Shown here: positions 51,864 to 64,000 of the stretch, piece by piece
Numbering within the stretch: position 1 is the stretch's first letter
How the letters are laid out: each line of letters begins with the position of its first letter
Assembly (NCBI RefSeq): GCF_003050965.1
Contig: NZ_QAOU01000001.1
Location: forward strand, 62,001-126,000
From: Nitrosospira sp. Nsp2
GTDB lineage: Bacteria > Pseudomonadota > Gammaproteobacteria > Burkholderiales > Nitrosomonadaceae
DNA length: 64,000 nucleotides
Direction of reading: 5' to 3'
Translations under genes and position numbers: made by a program
Notes under the pieces: model-generated
Told to the model about the DNA's origin: nothing
Databases searched by the model: none
Seen by the model: only the letters and a program-made list of their open reading frames with translations

Positions 51864-54701
51864 TCACGTTTGTGGCTGCAGTTGCGAATTGAGCGTCGCC
51901 CGCAGATACTGACCAGTGAAACTATTTTCGTCTGCCGCTATTTCCTCAGGTGTGCCTTGGGCCACGATTTCGCCACCACCTTCACCGCCTTCGGGCCCAA
52001 GGTCGATGATCCAATCGGCGGTTTTAATCACATCCAGGTTGTGCTCAATTACTATCACCGTGTTTCCATGGTCGCGCAGCCGATGCAGAACTTTCAAGAG
52101 CAGATCGATATCCTGAAAATGAAGGCCGGTGGTGGGCTCATCCAGAATATAAAGAGTGCGACCGGTATCGCGTTTTGAGAGTTCCAGCGACAGCTTCACC
52201 CGTTGGGCTTCCCCACCGGAAAGCGTGGTCGCGGATTGCCCCAAGGTGATATAGCCAAGACCCACATCCAGCAGGGTCCGGAGCTTGCGCGCGACCACTG
52301 GCACAGCGCTGAAAAATTCATGCGCGTATTCAACCGTCATCTGGAGAATTTCGTTGATGTTTTTCCCCTTGTATTGAATTTCCAGGGTTTCGCGGTTATA
52401 GCGCTTGCCATGGCATACATCGCATGAAACATAGATATCGGGGAGAAAATGCATTTCCACCTTGATCACGCCGTCCCCCTGACAGGCCTCGCAGCGCCCG
52501 CCTTTAACATTGAAGGAGAACCGGCCGGGCCCATAGCCACGCTCGCGCGCCTGCGGCACGCCGGCAAACAACTCGCGAATCGGGGTGAATAAGCCGGTGT
52601 AGGTGGCCGGGTTCGAGCGCGGCGTACGCCCAATGGGGCTCTGGTCCATGTTGATGACCTTATCAAAAAAAGCCAGCCCGTCCAGGTTGCGGTACGGCGC
52701 CGGCTCGGCAGCGCTGCCGTAGAGATGGCGGGCGGTGGCCAGGTAGAGCGTTTCATTGATGAGGGTGGATTTCCCTGAGCCCGAGACGCCGGTTACGCAC
52801 ACGAACAGCCCCACCGGCAGGTTGAGATTAACGTTTTTCAGGTTGTTGCCGGAGGCACCCTCGATTTTAAGCCACCGATCGCTTTTTGGCTCGGTACGCG
52901 TTTGGGGCATAGGGATGGCCAGCTGGCCCGAAAGATACTTCCCTGTCAGTGAGCGATTATTCTTCTGAATGGCCTGAGGTGTTCCTTCGGCTATAACCGA
53001 TCCCCCATGCTCGCCTGCGCCCGGACCCATGTCCACCACGTGATCGGCGGTAAGGATCGCATCCTGATCGTGTTCCACCACGATAACGCTATTGCCCAAG
53101 TCCCGAAGGTTCTTCAGAGTCTGCAGCAAGCGGCCGTTATCCCGCTGATGGAGTCCGATAGATGGCTCATCCAGCACATACATTACGCCAGTCAGACCGG
53201 ACCCGATCTGACTGGCCAGGCGAATGCGCTGGGACTCTCCGCCGGAGAGCGTATCGGCGGAGCGATCAAGCGACAGGTAATCCAGTCCGACGTTATTGAG
53301 GAACAAGATACGGCTGCAAATTTCCTTGACGATCTTTTCGGCGATGGCATGCTTATGGCCCGTCAAGGTCACCTGGTCGAAAAAAGTTTTTGCCTCTTTT
53401 AGGGGCAATGCGTTAATTTCATAAATCGCTTGTCCTCCTACCCGCACATGGCGTGCTTCCCGGCGGAGCCGAGTACCCGCGCACTCGGGACAGAGTTGGG
53501 AATTGAGGTATTTCGCCAGTTCCTCCCGTACCGCGACGGAATCGGTTTCCTTATACCGGCGCTCGAGATTGGGAATGATGCCCTCGAATGTATGTTTGCG
53601 ATGAGTCCGGGTTTCGTTTTCGTTCAAATATGCAAATGAAATTTTTTCCCTGCCGGAGCCGTTCAGGACGATATCCTGGATATTCGCGGGAAGCTGTTCA
53701 AAGGAGATTTCCAGATCAAAATCGTAGTGACTCGCAAGGCTGGCCAGCAGCTGGTAATAAAACTGGTTTCGCCGGTCCCAGCCCTTGATGGCGCCGGAAG
53801 CCAGCGATAGGTGCGGGAAGGCGACGATCCGCTTGGGGTCGAAAAACGTGATCTTCCCCAGCCCGTCGCACTTGGGACAAGCGCCCATCGGGTTGTTGAA
53901 TGAGAACAGGCGCGGCTCAAGTTCCGGCAGAGAATAGCTGCATACGGGGCAACTGAACTTGGCGGAAAAAAGATGTTCCTGGCCCGAATCCATTTCAACG
54001 GCCAGGGCGCGTCCATCGGCATGGCGCAGTGCCGTTTCGAACGATTCCGCCAGCCGCTGCTTGGAATCTTGCGAGATTTTGAGACGGTCTACCACCACTT
54101 CCACGGTGTGCTTTTTATTTTTCTGAAGTTTCGGCAGGGAATCGATGTCGTACACCTCGCCGTCTATTCTTAGCCGCACGAACCCCTGAGCCCGCAATTC
54201 ATCGATTAAATCCATCTGCTCGCCTTTGCGGCCTACCACGAGCGGGGCGAGTATCATCAGCCGGGTATCGGCGGGCAGCTGCAGGACATGATCTACCATT
54301 TGTGACACGCTTTGCGCCGTAAGCGTAATGCCGTGGTCGGGACATTGCGGGTCTCCCACGCGGGCAAACAGCAGACGCATGTAATCGTGTATTTCGGTAA
54401 CTGTGCCGACCGTCGAGCGGGGGTTGTGCGAGGTCGCTTTTTGCTCGATTGCGATGGCGGGGGATAGCCCCTCGATCAGATCAACGTCGGGTTTTTCCAT
54501 CAGTTGCAGGAATTGCCGCGCGTAGGCTGAAAGCGATTCCACATAGCGCCGTTGTCCTTCGGCATAAAGCGTATCGAATGCGAGCGAGGATTTGCCTGAT
54601 CCCGATAGGCCAGTGATAACTACCAGCTTGTTTCGGGGCAAATCGAGATTGACGTTTTTAAGATTGTGCGTGCGTGCACCGCGAATTCTAATCAGTTCCA
54701 T
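51864..54701 (-). CDS. uvrA: Excinuclease ABC subunit UvrA
   Basis: UvrA recognises bulky DNA damage and loads UvrB in nucleotide excision repair. The 945-residue protein has two ABC ATPase modules (Walker [24 protein letters not shown] and [15 protein letters not shown]), the signatures [38 protein letters not shown] and [17 protein letters not shown]. Zinc modules include [24 protein letters not shown] and CEACQGDG...[10 protein letters not shown]. Length and ends are normal. It is divergent from the MFS gene and near ssb, a common arrangement. Confidence 0.98.
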
Positions 54702-54888
54702 TGACCTTCCAATTGACGCCCAGGCCTCTCGACATTCCCACCCTTCTCATTTTCTGCGCCCATGTTGCCCAGCGTTTTTACATCATTTTTGCGGACGGCG
54801 CGACCATGAAGTACAACAGGGTCTTCTACCTGAGCGGTGAGCAAACCTGTTAATATACGCAAGTTTCCGCGTTTTCCCAATCTGATTC

Positions 54889-56274
54889 ATGTCCTCCTCA
54901 TTACCTCCCGAGAAATTGTCGCCGATAGAGTTGCGCGCCACCGCCGGTCTGGCCAGTATCTATGGGTTACGGATGTTGGGGATGTTCATCATCCTGCCCG
55001 TGTTCGCGTTCTATGCCGAGCATTTGCCTGGCGGGGATAACTATGCGCTGATTGGCATCGCGCTGGGGGCATACGGGCTGACCCAGGCAATACTGCAGGT
55101 TCCGTTTGGCTGGCTGTCCGATCGCTTCGGACGCAAACCCGTTATTTATGCCGGCTTGATCCTGTTCGCCATCGGCAGTTTTGTTGCTGCTAGCGCCACC
55201 GATATTTATTGGGTTATTTTCGGCCGCATCATCCAGGGCTCGGGCGCGATTTCGGCAGCGGTGATGGCGCTGGCCGCCGACCTTACCCGCGAAGAGCATC
55301 GCACCAAGGCAATGGCCGCGATAGGCATGACCATTGGCGTCACCTTCGCACTTTCACTGATTATTGCACCGGCGTTAAACCGGTTAATTGGGGTGCCGGG
55401 GATTTTTGTCATGACCGGAGTGCTCGCCCTGCTGGCCATGGTGGTGGTTTACAGAATCATTCCCGATCCGGTCGTCAGCCGCTTCCATTCCGATACTGAG
55501 GCAGTTCCTGGTCGCTTCAATAATGTATTGCACGATCCCGAGTTGCTGCGCCTGGATTTCGGCGTTTTCGCGCTGCATGCAGTGTTGATGGCGCTCTGGC
55601 TGGTCGTACCGCTGTCGTTGCGTAACGCCGGACTCGCGGCGGACCAGCACTGGCAAGTCTATTTTCCGGTCCTGGTTCTCTCCATGGCGATGATTATCCC
55701 GGCAATCATTTATGGTGAGAAGAAGGCCAAGCTCAAGCAGGTATTCGTCATTTCGGTAGGTGTACTGCTGGCGAGCCAAGTGTTGCTGGCGTATGCATTC
55801 AATTCATTATGGGGCACCGCAACCGCGTTGCTGGTGTTCTTCGCTGCCTTCAATTTGCTGGAAGCGACGTTGCCCTCGCTTATTTCCAAGATTGCGCCGG
55901 TGGGGGCGAAAGGCACCGCCATCGGCGTCTATAGCAGCGTGCAGTTTCTCGGCACTTTCGTAGGCGCAACCGCAGGCGGATATCTGTATCAGCATTTTGG
56001 CAGTTCTGCCTTGTTTGGGTTCTGCGGCAGTCTCCTTGCCTTATGGCTGATGTTTGCAGCCACGATGAAAGCGCCCGCCGCGGTGCGCACCAAAATGTAT
56101 CATGTGCAGGAAATGGATACGGGGGCCGCCAGCGGGTTGACCCGCCAGTTGGCGGCGCTGCCGGGCGTGCACGAGGCGCTCGTGCTTGCAAGCGAAGGCG
56201 TGGCATATCTCAAAGTGGACATGAGGGGCTTCGACGAACAAGGTGTTGTACAACTATTAGGGGGAAAAGCGTAA
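54889..56274 (+). CDS. MFS transporter, YajR-like
   Basis: This is a major facilitator superfamily antiporter with twelve predicted helices and 461 residues. Loop 2-3 carries the MFS motif [16 protein letters not shown], and helix 1 has [24 protein letters not shown], typical of the YajR group. The last 65 residues form a soluble ferredoxin-like YAM domain ([36 protein letters not shown]) that resembles a metal-binding fold. It shares one base with the ssb start (TAATG), so both are cotranscribed. The substrate is unknown. Confidence 0.93.
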
Positions 56275-56732
56275 TGGCATCAGTCAATAAGGTCATCCTC
56301 ATCGGAAATCTCGGTAAAGACCCGGAGACCCGCTATATGCCGAATGGCGACGCAGTGACCAATATCACCCTGGCCACGACCGAAACCTGGAAGGATAAAA
56401 ACGGTGAGAAACAGGAAAAAACCGAGTGGCACCGCGTCACTTTTTACCGCAAGCTGGCGGAAATCGCGGGTGAATACCTCAAGAAGGGCCGTCCGGTCTA
56501 TGTAGAAGGAAGGCTGGAAACGCGCAAATGGACCGACAAGGCAGGCGTCGAACGCTACACCACCGATGTCATTGCCAGCGACATGAAGATGCTGGGCACC
56601 AAGCCCGGCAGCGGCAGCTATGAAGGCGGGGAGAGGGAAGAGAGCAGCTATGCGCCCAGCCCGTCCGGTAGCAAGGCTCCAGCACGGAGCAGTACCAACT
56701 TCGATGTTATGGACGACGATATTCCGTTTTAG
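56274..56732 (+). CDS. ssb: Single-stranded DNA-binding protein
   Basis: SSB tetramers coat single-stranded DNA in replication, recombination and repair. The 152-residue protein has the OB fold ([78 protein letters not shown]) and a flexible Gly/Ser-rich linker. It ends with the acidic tip MDDDIPF that binds partner proteins. GGGGGAAAAG precedes the ATG. It is translationally coupled to the MFS gene. Confidence 0.98.
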
Positions 56733-57114
56733 CCAGTACAAAGTGCAAACAATTCGAGCGAAGGCATTGATTGTTTTCGCTCTTTTATTGTTGGCGGTTT
56801 TATTGTCGAGCTTACTATTCCATCTGCCGTTTACCGCAGACTAAACTATGCAGTACGCGTTGTGATGACTGGGAGCGGTGAGCGCCGATGTTGTTCAACC
56901 GACAATCTGGACTCCCGCTCTTCGAGTCGATGCGCGCAGAGCAAGCCGCACGTATCGGCTTTCTCAAGTGAAGCACCCTTCCGGCGTTCGACGTTCTTCG
57001 AGCGACGCAAGTCATTGCTTCCGATGCATTCTTGCAAAGCATTGCAAGAGAATATCGGAAAAAGAATGTGGATATCAAACCAATGGGACTCTCGTGCCAT
57101 CCTCTTTGCCGGTA
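56733..57114. other. Intergenic region between ssb and the SIR2-APAZ gene
   Basis: After the ssb terminator there is no supported gene. A palindrome TCTGC-CGTTTACC-GCAGA at 56823-56840 could be an operator or promoter element of the defence operon. The open frame continues upstream of 57115 to 56878, but its translation is Arg/Ser/Cys-rich and looks non-coding. The left border of the inserted defence block probably lies here. Confidence 0.4.
56756..56788 (+). terminator. Rho-independent terminator after ssb
   Basis: GAGCGAA (56756-56762) pairs with TTCGCTC (56776-56782), a 7-base stem with a 13-base loop, followed by TTTTATT. The position, 24 bases beyond the ssb stop, is normal. Confidence 0.75.
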
Positions 57115-58962
57115 ATGTCCGCTGCGGAGTTCGCCTGCGCGTTTGCTCTCCGTCCGCACTTGTTCGCATGGTTCCTGGGGGCGGGCGCTTCCGCTGCGTC
57201 GGGTATCCCGACTGGCTACGCAATGATTCGCGACTTCAAGACGCGCATCTTTTGCCGGGAAATGGGCTATTCGATAAAGGAAGTGGACGCAGCGGACCCG
57301 CTATGGGTTGCCCGCGTTGACAAATTCCTTCGAACGAGTTCGCTACTGCCACCTGATGGCGACCCCAACGAGTACGGAGCGGCCTTTGAAGCTGTCTACC
57401 CTAACGAGCGGCATCGTCGTCAGTACATAGACGATGCCATCAGCAAAGGGACTCCATCCTTTGCCCACCGAGCTCTGGCCGCGTTGATTTCGAGCAAGCA
57501 GTTAAGCTGCGTCTTCACTACGAACTTCGACGCATTGATGGAGACATCGGCGACGTTGACTGACCAGTTGCTTCTGCCAGAGAAGCGAGCAATGCCGACC
57601 GTGGCTGCACTTGACTCGGTTGAGAGAGCCCAACGTTGTGTTGCGGAGTCCGACTGGCCATTGATTGCAAAGCTTCATGGAGACTATAAGTCAACAAAGA
57701 TAAAAAATACCGGCATAGAACTGGAGCATCAGGACGAGCGCATGCGCGGTGTGCTCGTAGAGGCTTGCAAGCGCTTTGGTCTTGTGGTGGTGGGATACAG
57801 CGGCCGAGATGTCTCGGTTATGGAGGCGCTTGAATCCGTCCTGAAACACTCTCCCGTCTATCCGAGTGGACTGTATTGGGTCACGTCGTCTAAGTCGAAG
57901 CTCCTACCGGCAGTTCAGAGACTACTTAAGAATGCTTCTATAGCCGGGGTGGACGTCGCAGTGGTGGAGTCAAAGACGTTCGACGAGTTGGCAGGGGATG
58001 TAATCTCCCACGTCCGCCTTCCAGATGTGCTCCTGGAACACGTGATGCAGCAGCGGACACCAGCCAGGCTCCATCCGGTCAAGCTGCCTGAGGTAGAAGC
58101 AAGGGCCTTTCCCATCCTACGCTACTCTGCGTTATTGGTTGAGGGGATGCCGACATTCGCCCGTCGCATTTCTCTATCCAAAGCTGCAATCACCCCAGCG
58201 GTGTGGGAACTCCTGAAGGAGCAACGTTGCCGCGCCGTCGTTGCGGTACTTGGTCGCGAGCTAGCGGTGTTCGGCAAGGATGCAGAGGTGCTAGTTGCGC
58301 TCCAGTCGCTGGGCGCCCGCATTGATGGTACCATCGGCTTGGACCCCGCGAAGGACAGCTGGGCTTTAGGTCTTCTATATGACGCGCTTGCCAAGGCATT
58401 GTCTCGACGACGCCCCCTTCTGCCCCGATTCAAGCGCTTTGGACACGTATTAGTTGTTACCGCCCCACGAGAAGGTGAGGACGCGGACAAGACACAGAGG
58501 CGCGTGTCACAGCTTGCCCGGCTCAGGGCGGCTTATGACAGCAATCTGACTGGAGCAGTTCCCAACCTGGGATACCCGTACCAAGAGGGCGTCTACCTAA
58601 AGCTGGAGTGTATTGAAGACCGCTGGTGGTGCGGCTTCGAGCCCTCCACATTCGTCGACGTCCCCAGGGAAATTAGAGACGCAAGTGCGGCCCAAGACAG
58701 GGATGAGCTTGGGAGCTTTGTTTTTGGCAAGAGAGACCCCAGCGGTGACTGGAGGCGTGAGCGTTGGGCTAAGAAGTACAATCCAGATTGGTCCCAGATC
58801 GTCGACGCTTGGGCCATACTTCTCACCACCTGTGAGCACGGGCAGGTCTCAGCGTTTGGTCTACAGGGAGACGAAGGCATAGACGCTATCTTCCCGCTGT
58901 CGCCAGTGACCGGTTGGAGCCGTCCTTCGCATCACCATGCCTACTTCCAGAGGGCCAAGTGA
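57115..58962 (+). CDS. SIR2-APAZ effector of a short Argonaute (SPARSA) system
   Basis: This is the toxic NAD-consuming partner of the short Argonaute encoded next. The 615-residue protein has an N-terminal SIR2 domain (about 10-300): GAGASAASG at 22-30 binds NAD, then TTNFD at 135-139 with Asn137, KLHGD with His188, and GYSGRD at 227-232. Asn and His are the residues SIR2 effectors use for NAD+ hydrolysis, so it looks active. The C-terminal half (about 320-615) lacks other known motifs and, by position and pairing, is the APAZ domain that takes the place of the N/PAZ domains of long Argonautes. Start 57115 gives an N-terminus right before the SIR2 fold; the Shine-Dalgarno sequence is weak, and a GTG at 57094 is an alternative. 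The stop overlaps the Argonaute start by one base. Confidence 0.88.
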   Translation: MSAAEFACAFALRPHLFAWFLGAGASAASGIPTGYAMIRDFKTRIFCREMGYSIKEVDAADPLWVARVDKFLRTSSLLPPDGDPNEYGAAFEAVYPNERHRRQYIDDAISKGTPSFAHRALAALISSKQLSCVFTTNFDALMETSATLTDQLLLPEKRAMPTVAALDSVERAQRCVAESDWPLIAKLHGDYKSTKIKNTGIELEHQDERMRGVLVEACKRFGLVVVGYSGRDVSVMEALESVLKHSPVYPSGLYWVTSSKSKLLPAVQRLLKNASIAGVDVAVVESKTFDELAGDVISHVRLPDVLLEHVMQQRTPARLHPVKLPEVEARAFPILRYSALLVEGMPTFARRISLSKAAITPAVWELLKEQRCRAVVAVLGRELAVFGKDAEVLVALQSLGARIDGTIGLDPAKDSWALGLLYDALAKALSRRRPLLPRFKRFGHVLVVTAPREGEDADKTQRRVSQLARLRAAYDSNLTGAVPNLGYPYQEGVYLKLECIEDRWWCGFEPSTFVDVPREIRDASAAQDRDELGSFVFGKRDPSGDWRRERWAKKYNPDWSQIVDAWAILLTTCEHGQVSAFGLQGDEGIDAIFPLSPVTGWSRPSHHHAYFQRAK

Positions 58963-60413
58963 TGGCGGTTTACCCATCATTCTCCAAGCTTCCGCCATTC
59001 ATCCTTCTTGACGAACCGAAGTTGGCCTTCTCACCGTCGGATGGAACGCACGTCGATGTCCATCCGTTGCGAGGGCTCGTTCGATACAGCCCGTTCTCAA
59101 AAGGTTCCTTTGGGGGTTTTACCGCCAAGGTACGAATGGCAACAATAGGCCCGGAAAGTGCCTTCAAGAGGCGCGGCGAACTTATGGCCTCGCTGCGGAG
59201 AGAGTTTGAGCCTTCAGACCGCAGGGAATACGTCCTTAAATTCCCGGGCTTTGAGCGGCTCTTCGATGTGGAGCTAGTCTCTGCACCAGCTACGGCCCAC
59301 ATAAAGTGGCCCCACTCCCTGGGGCAACTCGGAGGGGAAGGATCGGTCGAGGCGCGGCTTTTTCAAGCTATGGAAAGCGCGTTGCGTAGGCTCGATGCCG
59401 TCCGGACCGAGTTTGACGTGGTGCTGGTTCACTTCCCGGATTCATGGAGCCCAGCGACTCGAGCAAAGGGGTTTGACGCACATGACGCTTTGAAAGCTCT
59501 TGGCGCTAAATACAACATTCCGACACAGGTTCTCAACGACCGAGCGTTCACATTTAACTACAAGGCGTCGCTTGCATGGCGGCTTGCGATTGCGTTGTAT
59601 GTGAAGGCTGGTGGAATACCCTGGAAGCTGGCTCGCGTATCTAGCGTTCCCGACGAAACCGCTTATATAGGCTTGGCGTACGCTCTCCGAGGAGACCAGC
59701 GAGAAGCACACTATGTCACTTGCTGTTCACAAGTCTTCGATATGGATGGAGGGGGGATGCAGTTTGTTGCCTTTGAGGCCCGAGACCCGATCGCCGATTT
59801 TGCCGAAGCAAGGCGAAACCCTTTCCTCAGCCGTGACGATATGCGGGCGGTGCTCGCCCGAAGCCTCGAGCTTTACCAAGGGCGAAACGGAGGTAATCTT
59901 CCTAAGCGTCTCGTCATTCATAAAACGACGGCTTTCAAACCGGAAGAAATCGACGGGACCTTTGATGCGCTTGCAGGCGTGCCCGAGGTGGAGTGCATCG
60001 AGATAGGTACCAATCCCAGTTGGCGAGGGGTTTGGCTGCTTGACTCTGGTAAGAAGTCTCCCCCAAGCAAGCCGTCGGGCTATCCTGTGCCGCGCGGGAC
60101 TGTTGTATTCCGTTCAGGTACGTCCGCGCTTCTCTGGGCGGCGGGTAACGCCCCCGAAGTTTCAAGTACCGGCGACTACTATCAAGGCAAGAAGAGCATC
60201 CCAAAACCGCTACAGCTCATTCGTCATGCAGGTCGCGGTCCCTTAGAGGTGGTAGCACATGAAGCGCTGGCACTGACAAAGATGGATTGGAACAACGATG
60301 CCCTGTACGATCCAGTACCAGTAAGCATTCGCTACTCGCAGAAGTTGGCACGGACGATTGCGAACGTCCCGGACTTGCCCGGCAAGACCTATCCATATCG
60401 ACTCTTTATGTAG
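58962..60413 (+). CDS. Short prokaryotic Argonaute (MID-PIWI)
   Basis: Short pAgo proteins bind a guide RNA and target DNA, and on target recognition trigger the associated NADase so the cell dies or stalls. The 483-residue protein starts at ATG 58962 (TGATG overlap with the SIR2-APAZ gene). A MID domain lies around 150-250 (VVLVHFPDSW, then a helix-rich segment including YKASLAWRLAIALYVKAGGIPW). The PIWI domain follows (YVTCCSQVFDMDGGGMQFVAFEARD at about 252; LVIHKTTAFKPEEIDGTFDAL at about 317). The C-terminus IRYSQKLARTIANVPDLPGKTYPYRLFM is typical of the family. The N and PAZ domains are absent and no DEDX tetrad is apparent, so slicing activity is not expected. Confidence 0.93.
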   Translation: MAVYPSFSKLPPFILLDEPKLAFSPSDGTHVDVHPLRGLVRYSPFSKGSFGGFTAKVRMATIGPESAFKRRGELMASLRREFEPSDRREYVLKFPGFERLFDVELVSAPATAHIKWPHSLGQLGGEGSVEARLFQAMESALRRLDAVRTEFDVVLVHFPDSWSPATRAKGFDAHDALKALGAKYNIPTQVLNDRAFTFNYKASLAWRLAIALYVKAGGIPWKLARVSSVPDETAYIGLAYALRGDQREAHYVTCCSQVFDMDGGGMQFVAFEARDPIADFAEARRNPFLSRDDMRAVLARSLELYQGRNGGNLPKRLVIHKTTAFKPEEIDGTFDALAGVPEVECIEIGTNPSWRGVWLLDSGKKSPPSKPSGYPVPRGTVVFRSGTSALLWAAGNAPEVSSTGDYYQGKKSIPKPLQLIRHAGRGPLEVVAHEALALTKMDWNNDALYDPVPVSIRYSQKLARTIANVPDLPGKTYPYRLFM

Positions 60414-60528
60414 CGTATTGCCGCCGAGCTGTGCATTCTCGAAATACTGAAACGCAAGTATTATTTGTCCACCGATCAACCCTTCGTACCTGCGGAATTC
60501 TGCGTGCGTACCTTCCGAACGGCCTGAC

Positions 60529-61815
60529 ATGAGCGCATTCAAATCCTCCCGCGAGTATCTCAAGGCCTTAGCTGGGGTCAGCTCAGCGAGTCCGTTAGCC
60601 GCATCATTCGGAAGCTCGCTGGCACAGCGGGAATACGAAAAGTCGATTGCACAAATCACATCGATTGAAAAGCAAACCAAATCACTCGGCTTAGCTGCCC
60701 AGTTGCAGGGCTCTGCAAGCGAGATGGCTGGTCTGACATCATCCAAGATACTGCAGGGGGCCTTTGCAGGTCTTACCTTAGAGCGCGAGTGTGCTGCCGT
60801 TACAGCCGCCCAGGGTACGACGCGAATGCTGGAGAATGCTTCCGGTAGCGGTGCGGCTTTACGTGAATATGCCAAGGCCATGGACCTCACAAGCCAGGTC
60901 AAGAAATTGGCGTTGGGATTTGATGTCAAAGCGGTCTCCAACGAGTATCTAAGGGTGGTGGAAGCTGCTAGCGCAACCATCCAGCTTGCGAAGACCTTCG
61001 GCGGGACCTCCGCACACCTCGACTATTTGAAGGGTCCCGCGAGTGCCAGCTGGATTCAGCAGCTGTCGAAATCTATGGTGGAAGACGACCTCTACCGCCG
61101 GTTTCTGGGCACGTTTGAGGCTCGACAGTCAATCTCGAGCGAGATATGGTCATCTGCTGCTGCTGAAATAGCGAAGCACCGCTACGACAAGCTCTTCTCC
61201 GTATCGGACGTTTGGGCGAAGCAAATTGAACTGCTGAAGCGCCCGGAGTATCTTGATACCTTACTCGCTACCATCGAACGCGACGTATCTGGCCACCGCT
61301 CTCATGCAGAGGATTTTGCCGGCAACGATGTGGAGGACCAAGACGGCGAAATGTTGTTCGGCCAGCTCGGCCAGGTGGACAGTCCTGAGCGCTTCCGCGA
61401 AGTCCTTAGCCGTTGCTCGCCAGGGATAAAGTGGGTTCTCCTAAATATTCTGCTCTATGTGATGTTGCCGGCCATGATAGGGATCTCGGTTAATCTGGTA
61501 ACGCCTCACCTCGAAGACTATCTTCACCGAAATCAGGCCGTGACCCAGCGCGAGCAGATAAAGGATATCAAGAAGCTCTCGATGGGAGAGCTTGGCCTTG
61601 CACTACGTGACTATCGATTTGTGACCGCGCCAACCTTGGTGCTCCGTGCCAATGCGAACTCCCGGTCTGCACAGGTAGGAAAGCTGCAATTTGGGCAGGT
61701 GGTAGCTGTTGTTTCCTCACAGCGAGACTGGACGAAAGTTGCATACGAGTATGGAGGCGGACAGGTGGTAACAGGATGGGTCTTTACCCGGTACACCGAA
61801 AAATTCCGGCGATAA
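60529..61815 (+). CDS. Uncharacterised protein with one membrane helix and C-terminal SH3-like domain
   Basis: I do not recognise a named family. The 428-residue protein has three parts: residues 1-300 are Ala/Ser-rich and predicted helical with coiled-coil character and little conservation to known folds; residues about 302-325 form one transmembrane helix (WVLLNILLYVMLPAMIGISVNLV); residues about 362-428 form a bacterial SH3-type beta domain (TLVLRANANSRSAQVGKLQFGQVVAVVSSQRDW ... GWVFTRY). It begins 115 bases after the short Argonaute gene on the same strand, without an intervening terminator, so it may be cotranscribed. Whether it is a membrane-anchored helper of the defence system or an unrelated neighbour is unknown. 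Confidence 0.7.
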   Translation: MSAFKSSREYLKALAGVSSASPLAASFGSSLAQREYEKSIAQITSIEKQTKSLGLAAQLQGSASEMAGLTSSKILQGAFAGLTLERECAAVTAAQGTTRMLENASGSGAALREYAKAMDLTSQVKKLALGFDVKAVSNEYLRVVEAASATIQLAKTFGGTSAHLDYLKGPASASWIQQLSKSMVEDDLYRRFLGTFEARQSISSEIWSSAAAEIAKHRYDKLFSVSDVWAKQIELLKRPEYLDTLLATIERDVSGHRSHAEDFAGNDVEDQDGEMLFGQLGQVDSPERFREVLSRCSPGIKWVLLNILLYVMLPAMIGISVNLVTPHLEDYLHRNQAVTQREQIKDIKKLSMGELGLALRDYRFVTAPTLVLRANANSRSAQVGKLQFGQVVAVVSSQRDWTKVAYEYGGGQVVTGWVFTRYTEKFRR

Positions 61816-62244
61816 GCGCGAAGCTGCCGGGAGCGAGAATGATTGCGCTGATAGGGCGAAAGTGTAAACAGCTGGGAAGAACAAACCGTTTTGTTTATAC
61901 TTTTCCCAAAATTCTGCGGATTCTTCCCCTTCTCACTCTCTCCCATCGAACTTAGTAGATACATCCTCAGTAACCATAACCGAAATAATTTCACCACAGG
62001 TTTAGCCCAGGCTGGCCGTAATCAGACAGGTTCCAACGAATAAAAATATGCTGCTGGCAGGTATTGCCGTGCCGCGTGTACCGCCTGCTGTCCCGTTTAA
62101 GGCTGCGTTGCGAGATACTGACTTGGAGGAATGAGGGGTGTTTTTATCTGGAGAAACGGCTTATCGATTCTTCCGGTAAACATTACGCTTCAAAGCTGCC
62201 TCTAAGCGAACCAAAATGAGCGAAAAAAAATGCGGGGGAAGTTC
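61816..62244. other. Intergenic region between the SH3 gene and the comEA-like gene
   Basis: About 430 bases contain nothing I can name. A weak AACAAA/TTTGTT hairpin at about 61882-61897 could end the upstream transcript. The right border of the defence block probably lies here. No direct repeat matching the left flank was found by eye. A 24-codon frame at about 62132 with GGAGG upstream is too short to call. Confidence 0.4.
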
Positions 62245-62538
62245 ATGAAAACACTGTTTCTGATCATCGTCACATTATTCGCACTCACCGGCGCAGCGTT
62301 CGCGGCGGTCAACGTCAACACTGCTACCCAGGCCGAACTGGAATCATTGCAGGGAATTGGCCCGGCGAAAGCCAAGGCAATTGTCGATTATCGCAAGAAG
62401 AATGGTCCTTTCAAATCGGCAGACGACTTGCAAAACGTCAATGGCATTGGCCCGGCGACTATGAAGCGGCTCCGCAAGGATGTGACCGTTGGGAGCACCT
62501 CTGCAGTCAAGAAGGACGCCAAGCCTCCCATCAAATAA
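62245..62538 (+). CDS. ComEA-like secreted helix-hairpin-helix DNA-binding protein
   Basis: This 97-residue protein has a signal peptide (MKTLFLIIVTLFALTGAAFA) and a double helix-hairpin-helix domain: VNVNTATQAELESLQGIGPAKAKAIVDYRKKNGPFKSADDLQNVNGIGPATMKRL. The domain is the DNA-binding unit of ComEA, the periplasmic competence receptor. A Lys-rich tail ends the protein. Many proteobacteria carry such short secreted homologues, whose role in DNA uptake is often untested. GGGGGAAG precedes ATG 62245. Confidence 0.93.
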   Translation: MKTLFLIIVTLFALTGAAFAAVNVNTATQAELESLQGIGPAKAKAIVDYRKKNGPFKSADDLQNVNGIGPATMKRLRKDVTVGSTSAVKKDAKPPIK

Positions 62539-62673
62539 AACAGACAGTTGGCTGGACGCTCGAAGTTACTCAAACGCCCACGGTAGCGAGTTTTGGGCTG
62601 CCTTAATCTTCGGCTCTACCATTTGTTTGGCCGTATGCCATAATCAAGCATCGTCTTTCTCAATTCCTTTTTC

Positions 62674-63561
62674 ATGTACAAGACCCTGGAAAACTTCGTC
62701 GGCAACACGCCACTGGTAAAACTCAAGCGCCTGCCGGGAAATACCGGCAATGTTGTTCTTGTCAAGCTGGAGGGCAATAATCCTGCCGGTTCGGTAAAAG
62801 ACCGGCCGGCGCTGTCGATGATTACGCACGCGCAGGAAAGGGGAGAGATCAAGCCGGGCGATACTTTGATAGAGGCCACCAGCGGAAATACGGGGATTGC
62901 GCTGGCGATGGCAGCAGCGATGATGGGTTATCGCATGCTGCTCGTGATGCCGGAGCATCTCAGCATCGAACGGCGGCAATCCATGAAAGCCTATGGCGCC
63001 GAGATTATACTCACGCCAAAAGAAGGAGGCATGGAAGAAGCCCGCGATGTGGCCGAGCGTATGCGCACCGAGGACCGCGGGATTATTCTGGATCAGTTCG
63101 CCAGCCCCGACAACCCCGGGGCGCACTACGAAGCCACTGCTCCCGAGATCTGGCGGGATACGGGGGGCGAGATTACCCACCTCGTAAGCAGCATGGGGAC
63201 CACTGGAACTATCATGGGTTGCTCACGGTATTTCAAGGAAAGAAAACCGGAGATACAAATCATCGGTGTCCAGCCGGAAGAGGGCGCCCAGATTCCGGGA
63301 ATTCGGAAGTGGCCCGAAGCCTATCTGCCAAAAATCTACGATCCTCGCAGGGTGGATCGAATTATGCTCGTTTCTCAGGCTGAGGCCGAGGAAACAACCC
63401 GGCAGTTGGCACGCGAGGAGGGGATTTTTGCGGGTATTTCGTCCGGGGGCGCATTGGCCGCTGCACTCAAAATTTCCGCCGCGACAGAAAACGCCACTAT
63501 TGTCTCAATCGTATGCGACCGCGGCGATCGTTATCTTTCCACGGGCGTTTTCCCAGCGTAG
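62674..63561 (+). CDS. cysM: Cysteine synthase B (O-acetylserine sulfhydrylase)
   Basis: CysM makes cysteine from O-acetylserine with sulfide or thiosulfate. The 295-residue protein has the PLP lysine in NPAGSVKDRPA, the asparagine loop ATSGNTGIALAMAAAMMGY, the phosphate-cup motif SSMGTTGTIMGCSRYFKE and the ISSGGALAAALKI segment. The C-terminus is DRGDRYLSTGVFPA. The length and the absence of a long C-terminal extension favour CysM over CysK. It is separated from the comEA-like gene by 135 bases. Confidence 0.97.
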   Translation: MYKTLENFVGNTPLVKLKRLPGNTGNVVLVKLEGNNPAGSVKDRPALSMITHAQERGEIKPGDTLIEATSGNTGIALAMAAAMMGYRMLLVMPEHLSIERRQSMKAYGAEIILTPKEGGMEEARDVAERMRTEDRGIILDQFASPDNPGAHYEATAPEIWRDTGGEITHLVSSMGTTGTIMGCSRYFKERKPEIQIIGVQPEEGAQIPGIRKWPEAYLPKIYDPRRVDRIMLVSQAEAEETTRQLAREEGIFAGISSGGALAAALKISAATENATIVSIVCDRGDRYLSTGVFPA

Positions 63562-63629
63562 TATTGTGCCTCGTTAAGTGCCCGCGTTGTCAGCGCCATT
63601 AACCCGCTGGCGATTCATGGCTGATCGTA

Positions 63630-64000
63630 ATGATAAAGCTCGTCAAAATATTGACACCATTCTTGATCGCGAGCTTTTCCGCATACGCTGAATCCCGCAT
63701 TACACTTTCCATCGATGACGTTCAGAGTCCCTTTTTAAATTCAAAAGGCGTTCAGGTTAGCCTGGCTGGTTCACGGGCTTCTGTGCTGGAGATTAAACTG
63801 GGAGAAATGGAGGTACAGGGGAAAAGCTGGCGTGATCTACGATTTTCCTGCGCCAAGTTTCAGGTTACGGGTAGCGCGGGTCGTTGCGAAAAGGGCGTGC
63901 TAAGGGTGTCCCCGGCTCCACCGCTCCCCGTCGCTTTCCTTTTTTCTTCTGCCGACAAGACACTGGACGTACAGCTCCAGGCTACAACCGATGCGGCGAG
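63630..64000 (+). CDS. Secreted protein of unknown function, cut by the right edge
   Basis: The frame opens at ATG 63630 and is still open after 123 codons at the window end. It starts with a signal peptide (MIKLVKILTPFLIASFSAYA) and continues as an apparently beta-rich mature domain (ITLSIDDVQSPFLNSKGVQVSL, VLEIKLGEMEVQGKSWRDLRFSCAK), with two cysteines about 12 residues apart. An overlapping ATG at 63617 gives only 24 codons. No family is recognised. Its stop is missing only because of the window limit. Confidence 0.7.
   Translation, partial: MIKLVKILTPFLIASFSAYAESRITLSIDDVQSPFLNSKGVQVSLAGSRASVLEIKLGEMEVQGKSWRDLRFSCAKFQVTGSAGRCEKGVLRVSPAPPLPVAFLFSSADKTLDVQLQATTDAA

Follow-up and report, generated by a model that had tools for sequence, protein, structure and literature searches.

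The closest described relative of the gene pair reported here, ranking first by both sequence and fold search, is the SPARSA system of Geobacter sulfurreducens (Gs), GsSir2/Ago (structures 8in8, 8jkz, 8jl0, 8k87, 8y7z and 8y80), which consists of the same two genes, one for a SIR2-APAZ protein and one for a short Argonaute. Further SIR2-APAZ systems, CcSir2/Ago from Caballeronia and PgSir2-Ago from Paraburkholderia, have reportedly been tested for defence. In the working proposed from Gs, the Argonaute and the SIR2-APAZ protein would form a heterodimer, in which the APAZ would supply the lobe missing from the short Argonaute, and a 5'-phosphorylated guide RNA would be seated in the MID pocket. 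The pairing of this guide with invading single-stranded DNA would then be sensed by a PIWI loop and turn on the hydrolysis of NAD+ by the SIR2 domain, and the loss of NAD+ would halt or kill the infected cell, i.e., provide defence.

The activation of the Gs SIR2 domain is disputed, given that PMC10474274 describes a freed SIR2 domain, whereas PMC10781750 describes a shift of the H186 loop. No oligomers are reported in PMC10474274, unlike the entry PDB 8y80 retrieved in the fold search, which is titled 'tetrameric SPARSA'.

The window, i.e., the whole stretch of 64,000 nucleotides of Nitrosospira sp. Nsp2 that was analysed, contains another SPARSA in the widespread proteobacterial version, a system ordinary in kind and well supported (Table 1). 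What the locus adds beyond this identity is the replacement of the residues that meet base 2 and the defence-filled interval between ssb and comEA. An earlier note had described two genes that overlap by a single base, and both frames were found intact, with the shared base lying in AAGTGATGG, where the TGA stop meets the ATG start. The SIR2-APAZ frame is open upstream to a GTG at 56878, which would give 694 aa, and the extra 79 residues, when searched alone, match nothing below E 1.3 in the loci L001-L046, which makes 57115 the apparently better start, though unproven. The G+C content of 56732-62245 (54.8%, compared with 54.2% in the whole window) gives no signal, no Rfam family reached its gathering score in 54000-64000, and the repeats in 56600-62400 are short, chance-like pairs only.

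Table 1. Coordinates of the gene pair, its key residues and its surroundings in the window, and the content of the corresponding interval in other genomes
Feature	Position	Strand	Description or basis
SIR2-APAZ gene	57115..58962	+	615 aa; open frame, profile, PDB sequence and fold matches
SIR2 domain (about residues 1-315) and APAZ (about residues 335-614) of the SIR2-APAZ protein			Rough limits, alignment to GsSir2
Asn137 codon	57523..57525	+	Aligned with catalytic Gs N142
His188 codon	57676..57678	+	Aligned with catalytic Gs H186
Short prokaryotic Argonaute gene (MID-PIWI, without N or PAZ)	58962..60413	+	483 aa
MID pocket, codons 172-203	59475..59570	+	Alignment to Gs Argonaute
Downstream gene	60529-61815	+	428 aa, C-terminal SH3_3 domain, hydrophobic segment by eye
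ssb-comEA stretch not common to G101	56732..61985	.	Comparison with same-species genome G101
G101 filling			PADLOC dCTPase protein with Pfam deaminase domain
G001 filling			Lamassu LmuA/LmuB
G007 filling	L086:2599-7942	-	Methyltransferase, PRTase-CE, ORC-CDC6-like ATPase, CARF-type protein
G008 filling	L087:4620-7664	+	UG5-nitrilase reverse transcriptase
G006 filling			Methyltransferase, HEPN, GmrSD-type protein with PADLOC NsnA and PD-T4-2 matches
G005 filling			ATPase, weak matches only

The profile searches support the reading of the first protein as a SIR2 domain followed by a long C-terminal half in the APAZ position, with Pfam SIR2_2 at 5.2e-14 and the PADLOC model Aga_SIR2-PNTD1-PNTD2 at 1.5e-206 (685.5 bits, residues 10-603). 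Its PDB relatives at E <= 0.001 are exclusively Gs SPARSA chains (three distinct sequences, best 8.5e-52), and a profile built from 24 SIR2-APAZ proteins retrieved Gs SPARSA at 1.6e-72 (E <= 0.01). In Foldseek, the AlphaFold model (mean pLDDT 74.0) aligns with 8y80_E across 623 columns (1.0e-35) and, in part, with 8k87_B (258 modelled residues) and 8in8_B (254), the latter two at TM 0.72 and 0.70, respectively, by target. Since the SIR2 domain is invisible in the structure 8in8, according to PMC10474274, its modelled chain is the APAZ part and the match to 8in8_B is thus an APAZ match. Superposition of the whole chain on Gs was poor for the three best targets (rmsd 12.6-13.6 A, TM 0.43-0.47) and did not reproduce the domain arrangement, possibly as a result of folding the chain in the absence of the Argonaute.

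The second protein had been described as a MID-PIWI protein without N or PAZ domains, and short-Argonaute models and chains do cover its 483 aa end to end. The PADLOC model pAgo_I matches at 9.3e-210 (695.1 bits, residues 8-483), and in the PDB the Gs Argonaute ranks first by sequence (residues 8-483, 4.4e-95), far ahead of 9om4_B at 2.1e-26. In Pfam at E <= 1, the only family found was Piwi (0.0053, 16.5 bits, under the 28.9-bit cut-off), and N and PAZ domains were not found. Foldseek placed 8y7z_B first (1.9e-32); confidence in the AlphaFold model of this protein is low to modest, with a mean pLDDT of 61.8 and 162 of the 483 residues below 50, including 1-53 and 472-483. As judged by eye, YIGLAYAL and VIHKTTAF occupy the places expected of the slicer motifs GxD and RDG, and the PIWI may be slicer-dead. 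Both the PIWI and the APAZ domains proposed in the earlier note were, therefore, found by profile and by structure.

The two NADase residues expected in the SIR2 domain, Asn137 and His188, are at the positions claimed, and they are invariant in the 24 aligned SIR2-APAZ proteins. Alanine mutants of the corresponding N142 and H186 of GsSir2 lost their NADase activity (PMC10781750, available part). More broadly, the six SIR2 positions at which alanine mutants are inactive in Gs, according to the same part of that source, are all kept (N137, F138, D139, H188, Y228 and F289), and R30, S38, R190 and E262 of GsSir2, where single alanine mutants retained activity (PMC10781750, same part), are replaced by A, Y, K and L. 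The window's system shares with GsSir2/Ago this Asn-His dyad, the 5'-phosphate pocket and an alignable sensor-loop region, and differs in an Argonaute that is approximately 35% identical by Foldseek alignment, in the residues at base 2/2', and in a SIR2-APAZ protein 28-31 residues longer than the listed Gs chains. Both proteins match the PADLOC SPARSA families PDLC02419/PDLC02401 with PDLC02377 nearly full-length, and no more than ordinary divergence was seen between the pair and these families or the proteobacterial clade, with the host genus and the chromosomal site being different.

The pair was also found to be widely kept together. In 84,980 species genomes, a single pattern-based scan yielded 40 loci, which is a lower bound, and 38 of these have a full-length or nearly full-length SIR2-APAZ (58-73% identity), the other two (L043 and L046) being fragments only. 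An Argonaute sequence adjoins the SIR2-APAZ in all 38, with an overlap of 1 or 4 bases in 35 (start codon chosen by script), and this co-occurrence, together with the one-base overlap, indicates that both genes belong to one operon. The hosts, by record title, are alpha-, beta- and gammaproteobacteria, the closest genomes being Achromobacter ruhlandii (73%/87%) and Cupriavidus (70-71%/81-82%). Among 399 genomes of the order, the Argonaute had a match in seven, four of them, including the window's own genome, above 300 bits, and in a search of 101 genomes of relatives, five matched, two of them (the window's genome and the same-genus genome G011) above 300 bits. Matches were present in 43 of 72,556 plasmid records, three of which cover at least 80% of the SIR2-APAZ. 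Four of 50,697 phage records also match, covering the SIR2 half only (PQ189367, PQ189330, MW344766 and MT837260: two from Vibrio phages, one from a Haloferax virus and one from a faecal phage).

The profile, sequence and fold matches, the active-site residues, the order of the genes and their conserved pairing all agree, which bears out the SPARSA interpretation of the earlier note, and the gene pair is very probably a SPARSA immune system that works as proposed from Gs. By analogy with that system, it would form the complex, use an RNA guide against a DNA target, deplete NAD+ and so defend the cell. A different Argonaute-linked system, such as SPARTA, SPARDA or a long Argonaute, is suggested by the weaker matches of the Argonaute to SPARTA, SPARDA, SPARHA and long Argonautes, but this reading has next to no probability, given that the SPARSA scores are far above the others and that Pfam at E <= 1 found only SIR2 families in the partner, with no TIR domain, which argues against SPARTA, and no nuclease. 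A long Argonaute is rejected on the N and PAZ result above and on the best models and chains, which are those of short Argonautes. It is also improbable, to a lesser degree, that the locus has decayed or fallen silent and does not function. The pair is strain-specific, in that it was not found in the same-species genome G101, and in three of the 38 related loci (L013, L024 and L028) the Argonaute gene is broken up or truncated, but here both frames are open, full-length and overlapping, and the active-site and pocket residues are conserved. The interruption of the frame in related strains that the earlier note had considered does not count against the reading: the frames are intact here, 34 of the 38 related Argonautes are one complete frame, and one more (L031) is cut by a contig end.

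With regard to the suggestion that this SPARSA is a distinct lineage, the Argonaute tree (midpoint root; 44 rows after the exclusion of three broken ones) places long branches, supported at 100/100, between the window's clade and the Gs group. The clade is, on the other hand, large, and the PADLOC models already fit its member here at nearly 700 bits, so that the suggestion is partly right. The terminal regions do differ from those of Gs, with phmmer ending at SIR2-APAZ residue 515, but the C-terminus is conserved among the protein's own relatives. The long branches of G331 and G436 may be falsely joined, according to the tool's warning. More distant short Argonautes are present in other genomes of the genus and family (L003, L004 and L005, 29-32% identical across a portion of the sequence), and one same-genus Argonaute (L078:9183-11119, minus strand), 36% identical to the window's, has pocket residues closer to those of Gs and, near a contig end, an adjoining sequence that resembles an APAZ fragment by eye.

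A departure from Gs was found in the MID pocket, where D172, H174, K178, Q189 and N192 are the same as in Gs, and F198 and S203 replace R190 and N195 of the Gs Argonaute. In a comparison of 47 Argonautes, the 5'-phosphate residues H166, K170 (printed both as K70 and K170 in the available part of PMC10781750) and Q181, in Gs numbering, are kept in all 47. In the window's clade, whose 41 rows (40 distinct sequences) reflect shared descent and not 41 events, the guide base 1 contacts are kept (D164 in 40/41, N184 in 41/41), and the guide base 2 contacts R190 and N195 are F and S in every row. At the target base 2' contacts, with one row gapped, N82 is E in 38/40 (the remaining two have K and Q) and Y84 is V in 40/40, and at the Y359 position 21 rows have Y, 19 have F and one broken copy has A. 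The Gs group, which comprises Gs and three relatives (from G011, a Bradyrhizobium plasmid and the genome G182), keeps R190, N82 and Y84 in 4/4, N195 in 3/4 and N184 in 2/4, and two Rhodobacterales plasmid proteins are intermediate at the pocket (D, L, Y and S). This pattern fits the branching of the Argonaute tree.

Throughout the clade, the residues that meet base 2 of the guide and base 2' of the target would, from the alignment, be other than those of Gs, and since these residues are replaced, the guide preference may differ from the 5'-AU of Gs. A refinement of SPARSA, rather than a true rival to it, is therefore that the system is SPARSA by descent with an altered choice of nucleic acid, either another guide 5' dinucleotide or no reading of base 2, which we consider slightly less likely than not. 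In favour of this are the uniform replacements in the clade, the retention of the original residues in the Gs group and the inactivity of the Gs double mutant R190A/N195A (PMC10781750, available part), but single Gs mutants at either R190 or N195 remained active (same part of PMC10781750). Likewise, mutation of the Gs 2'-base pocket left NAD+ hydrolysis unaffected, and the effect of removing target bases 1'-2' was no more than mild (PMC10474274), so that the reading of base 2 may matter little. Pocket residues also appear to drift, given that two of the four Gs-group proteins have K or R in place of N184, a residue essential in Gs, and aligned residues need not sit alike. The specific form of the idea, in which the clade has another end-reading code, with the 5'-phosphate grip kept, the base-2/2' module changed to Phe, Ser, mostly Glu, and Val, and a guide preference unlike 5'-AU, is put forward tentatively, as somewhat less likely to be right than wrong. 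The replacements suggest that the SPARSA of Gs, whose structure is solved, may be unrepresentative of guide reading in the larger proteobacterial clade, and altered guide reading, if true, would bear on the use of these systems as nucleic-acid sensors.

The genome had been called ammonia-oxidiser-like, and this is supported by one match in it to PF02461, the ammonia-monooxygenase family, which includes methane enzymes too. The host is a probable ammonia oxidiser, and the locus would place in it a two-gene, probably NAD+-depleting immune system, on which nothing was found in the titles and abstract openings of the literature on Argonaute and Nitrosomonas.

The operon is located between ssb and a comEA-like gene, in an interval that is a variable site in the genus. 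The genome G101 is 99.4% identical over the 6.7 kb upstream, and its homology ends at base 56731, within the ssb stop codon, with a ragged resumption from approximately 61986. No tRNA gene was found in the window, no integrase was found by Pfam among the three long frames of the insert, and the literature search returned nothing on such a variable ssb-comEA site. The third of these frames begins 115 bases downstream of the Argonaute and was rejected as a third gene of the operon, as its matches among L001-L046 are confined to the locus of the window itself (L001), the 16 loci L082-L097 of the same genus contain no match, and PADLOC gave none either.

When the interval was compared in 22 other genomes of the genus, its length was 2.0-6.0 kb in six, 737 bases in one and 26-265 bases in 14, with no comEA match found in the remaining one (G017). 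Seven of the 23 genomes are thus occupied at 2 kb or more (window 56732-62229; loci L082, L083, L086, L087, L089 and L113), and six of these seven carry a strong PADLOC-matched gene, each with different genes, although these are matches to components and not proof of working systems. The interval offers a small set of defence loci for the genus. For example, the four genes of L086 look like a defence cassette, whose ORC-CDC6-like ATPase has no PADLOC match at 1e-5, and the UG5-nitrilase gene of L087 may be split, given that its reverse-transcriptase model is spread over two successive frames.
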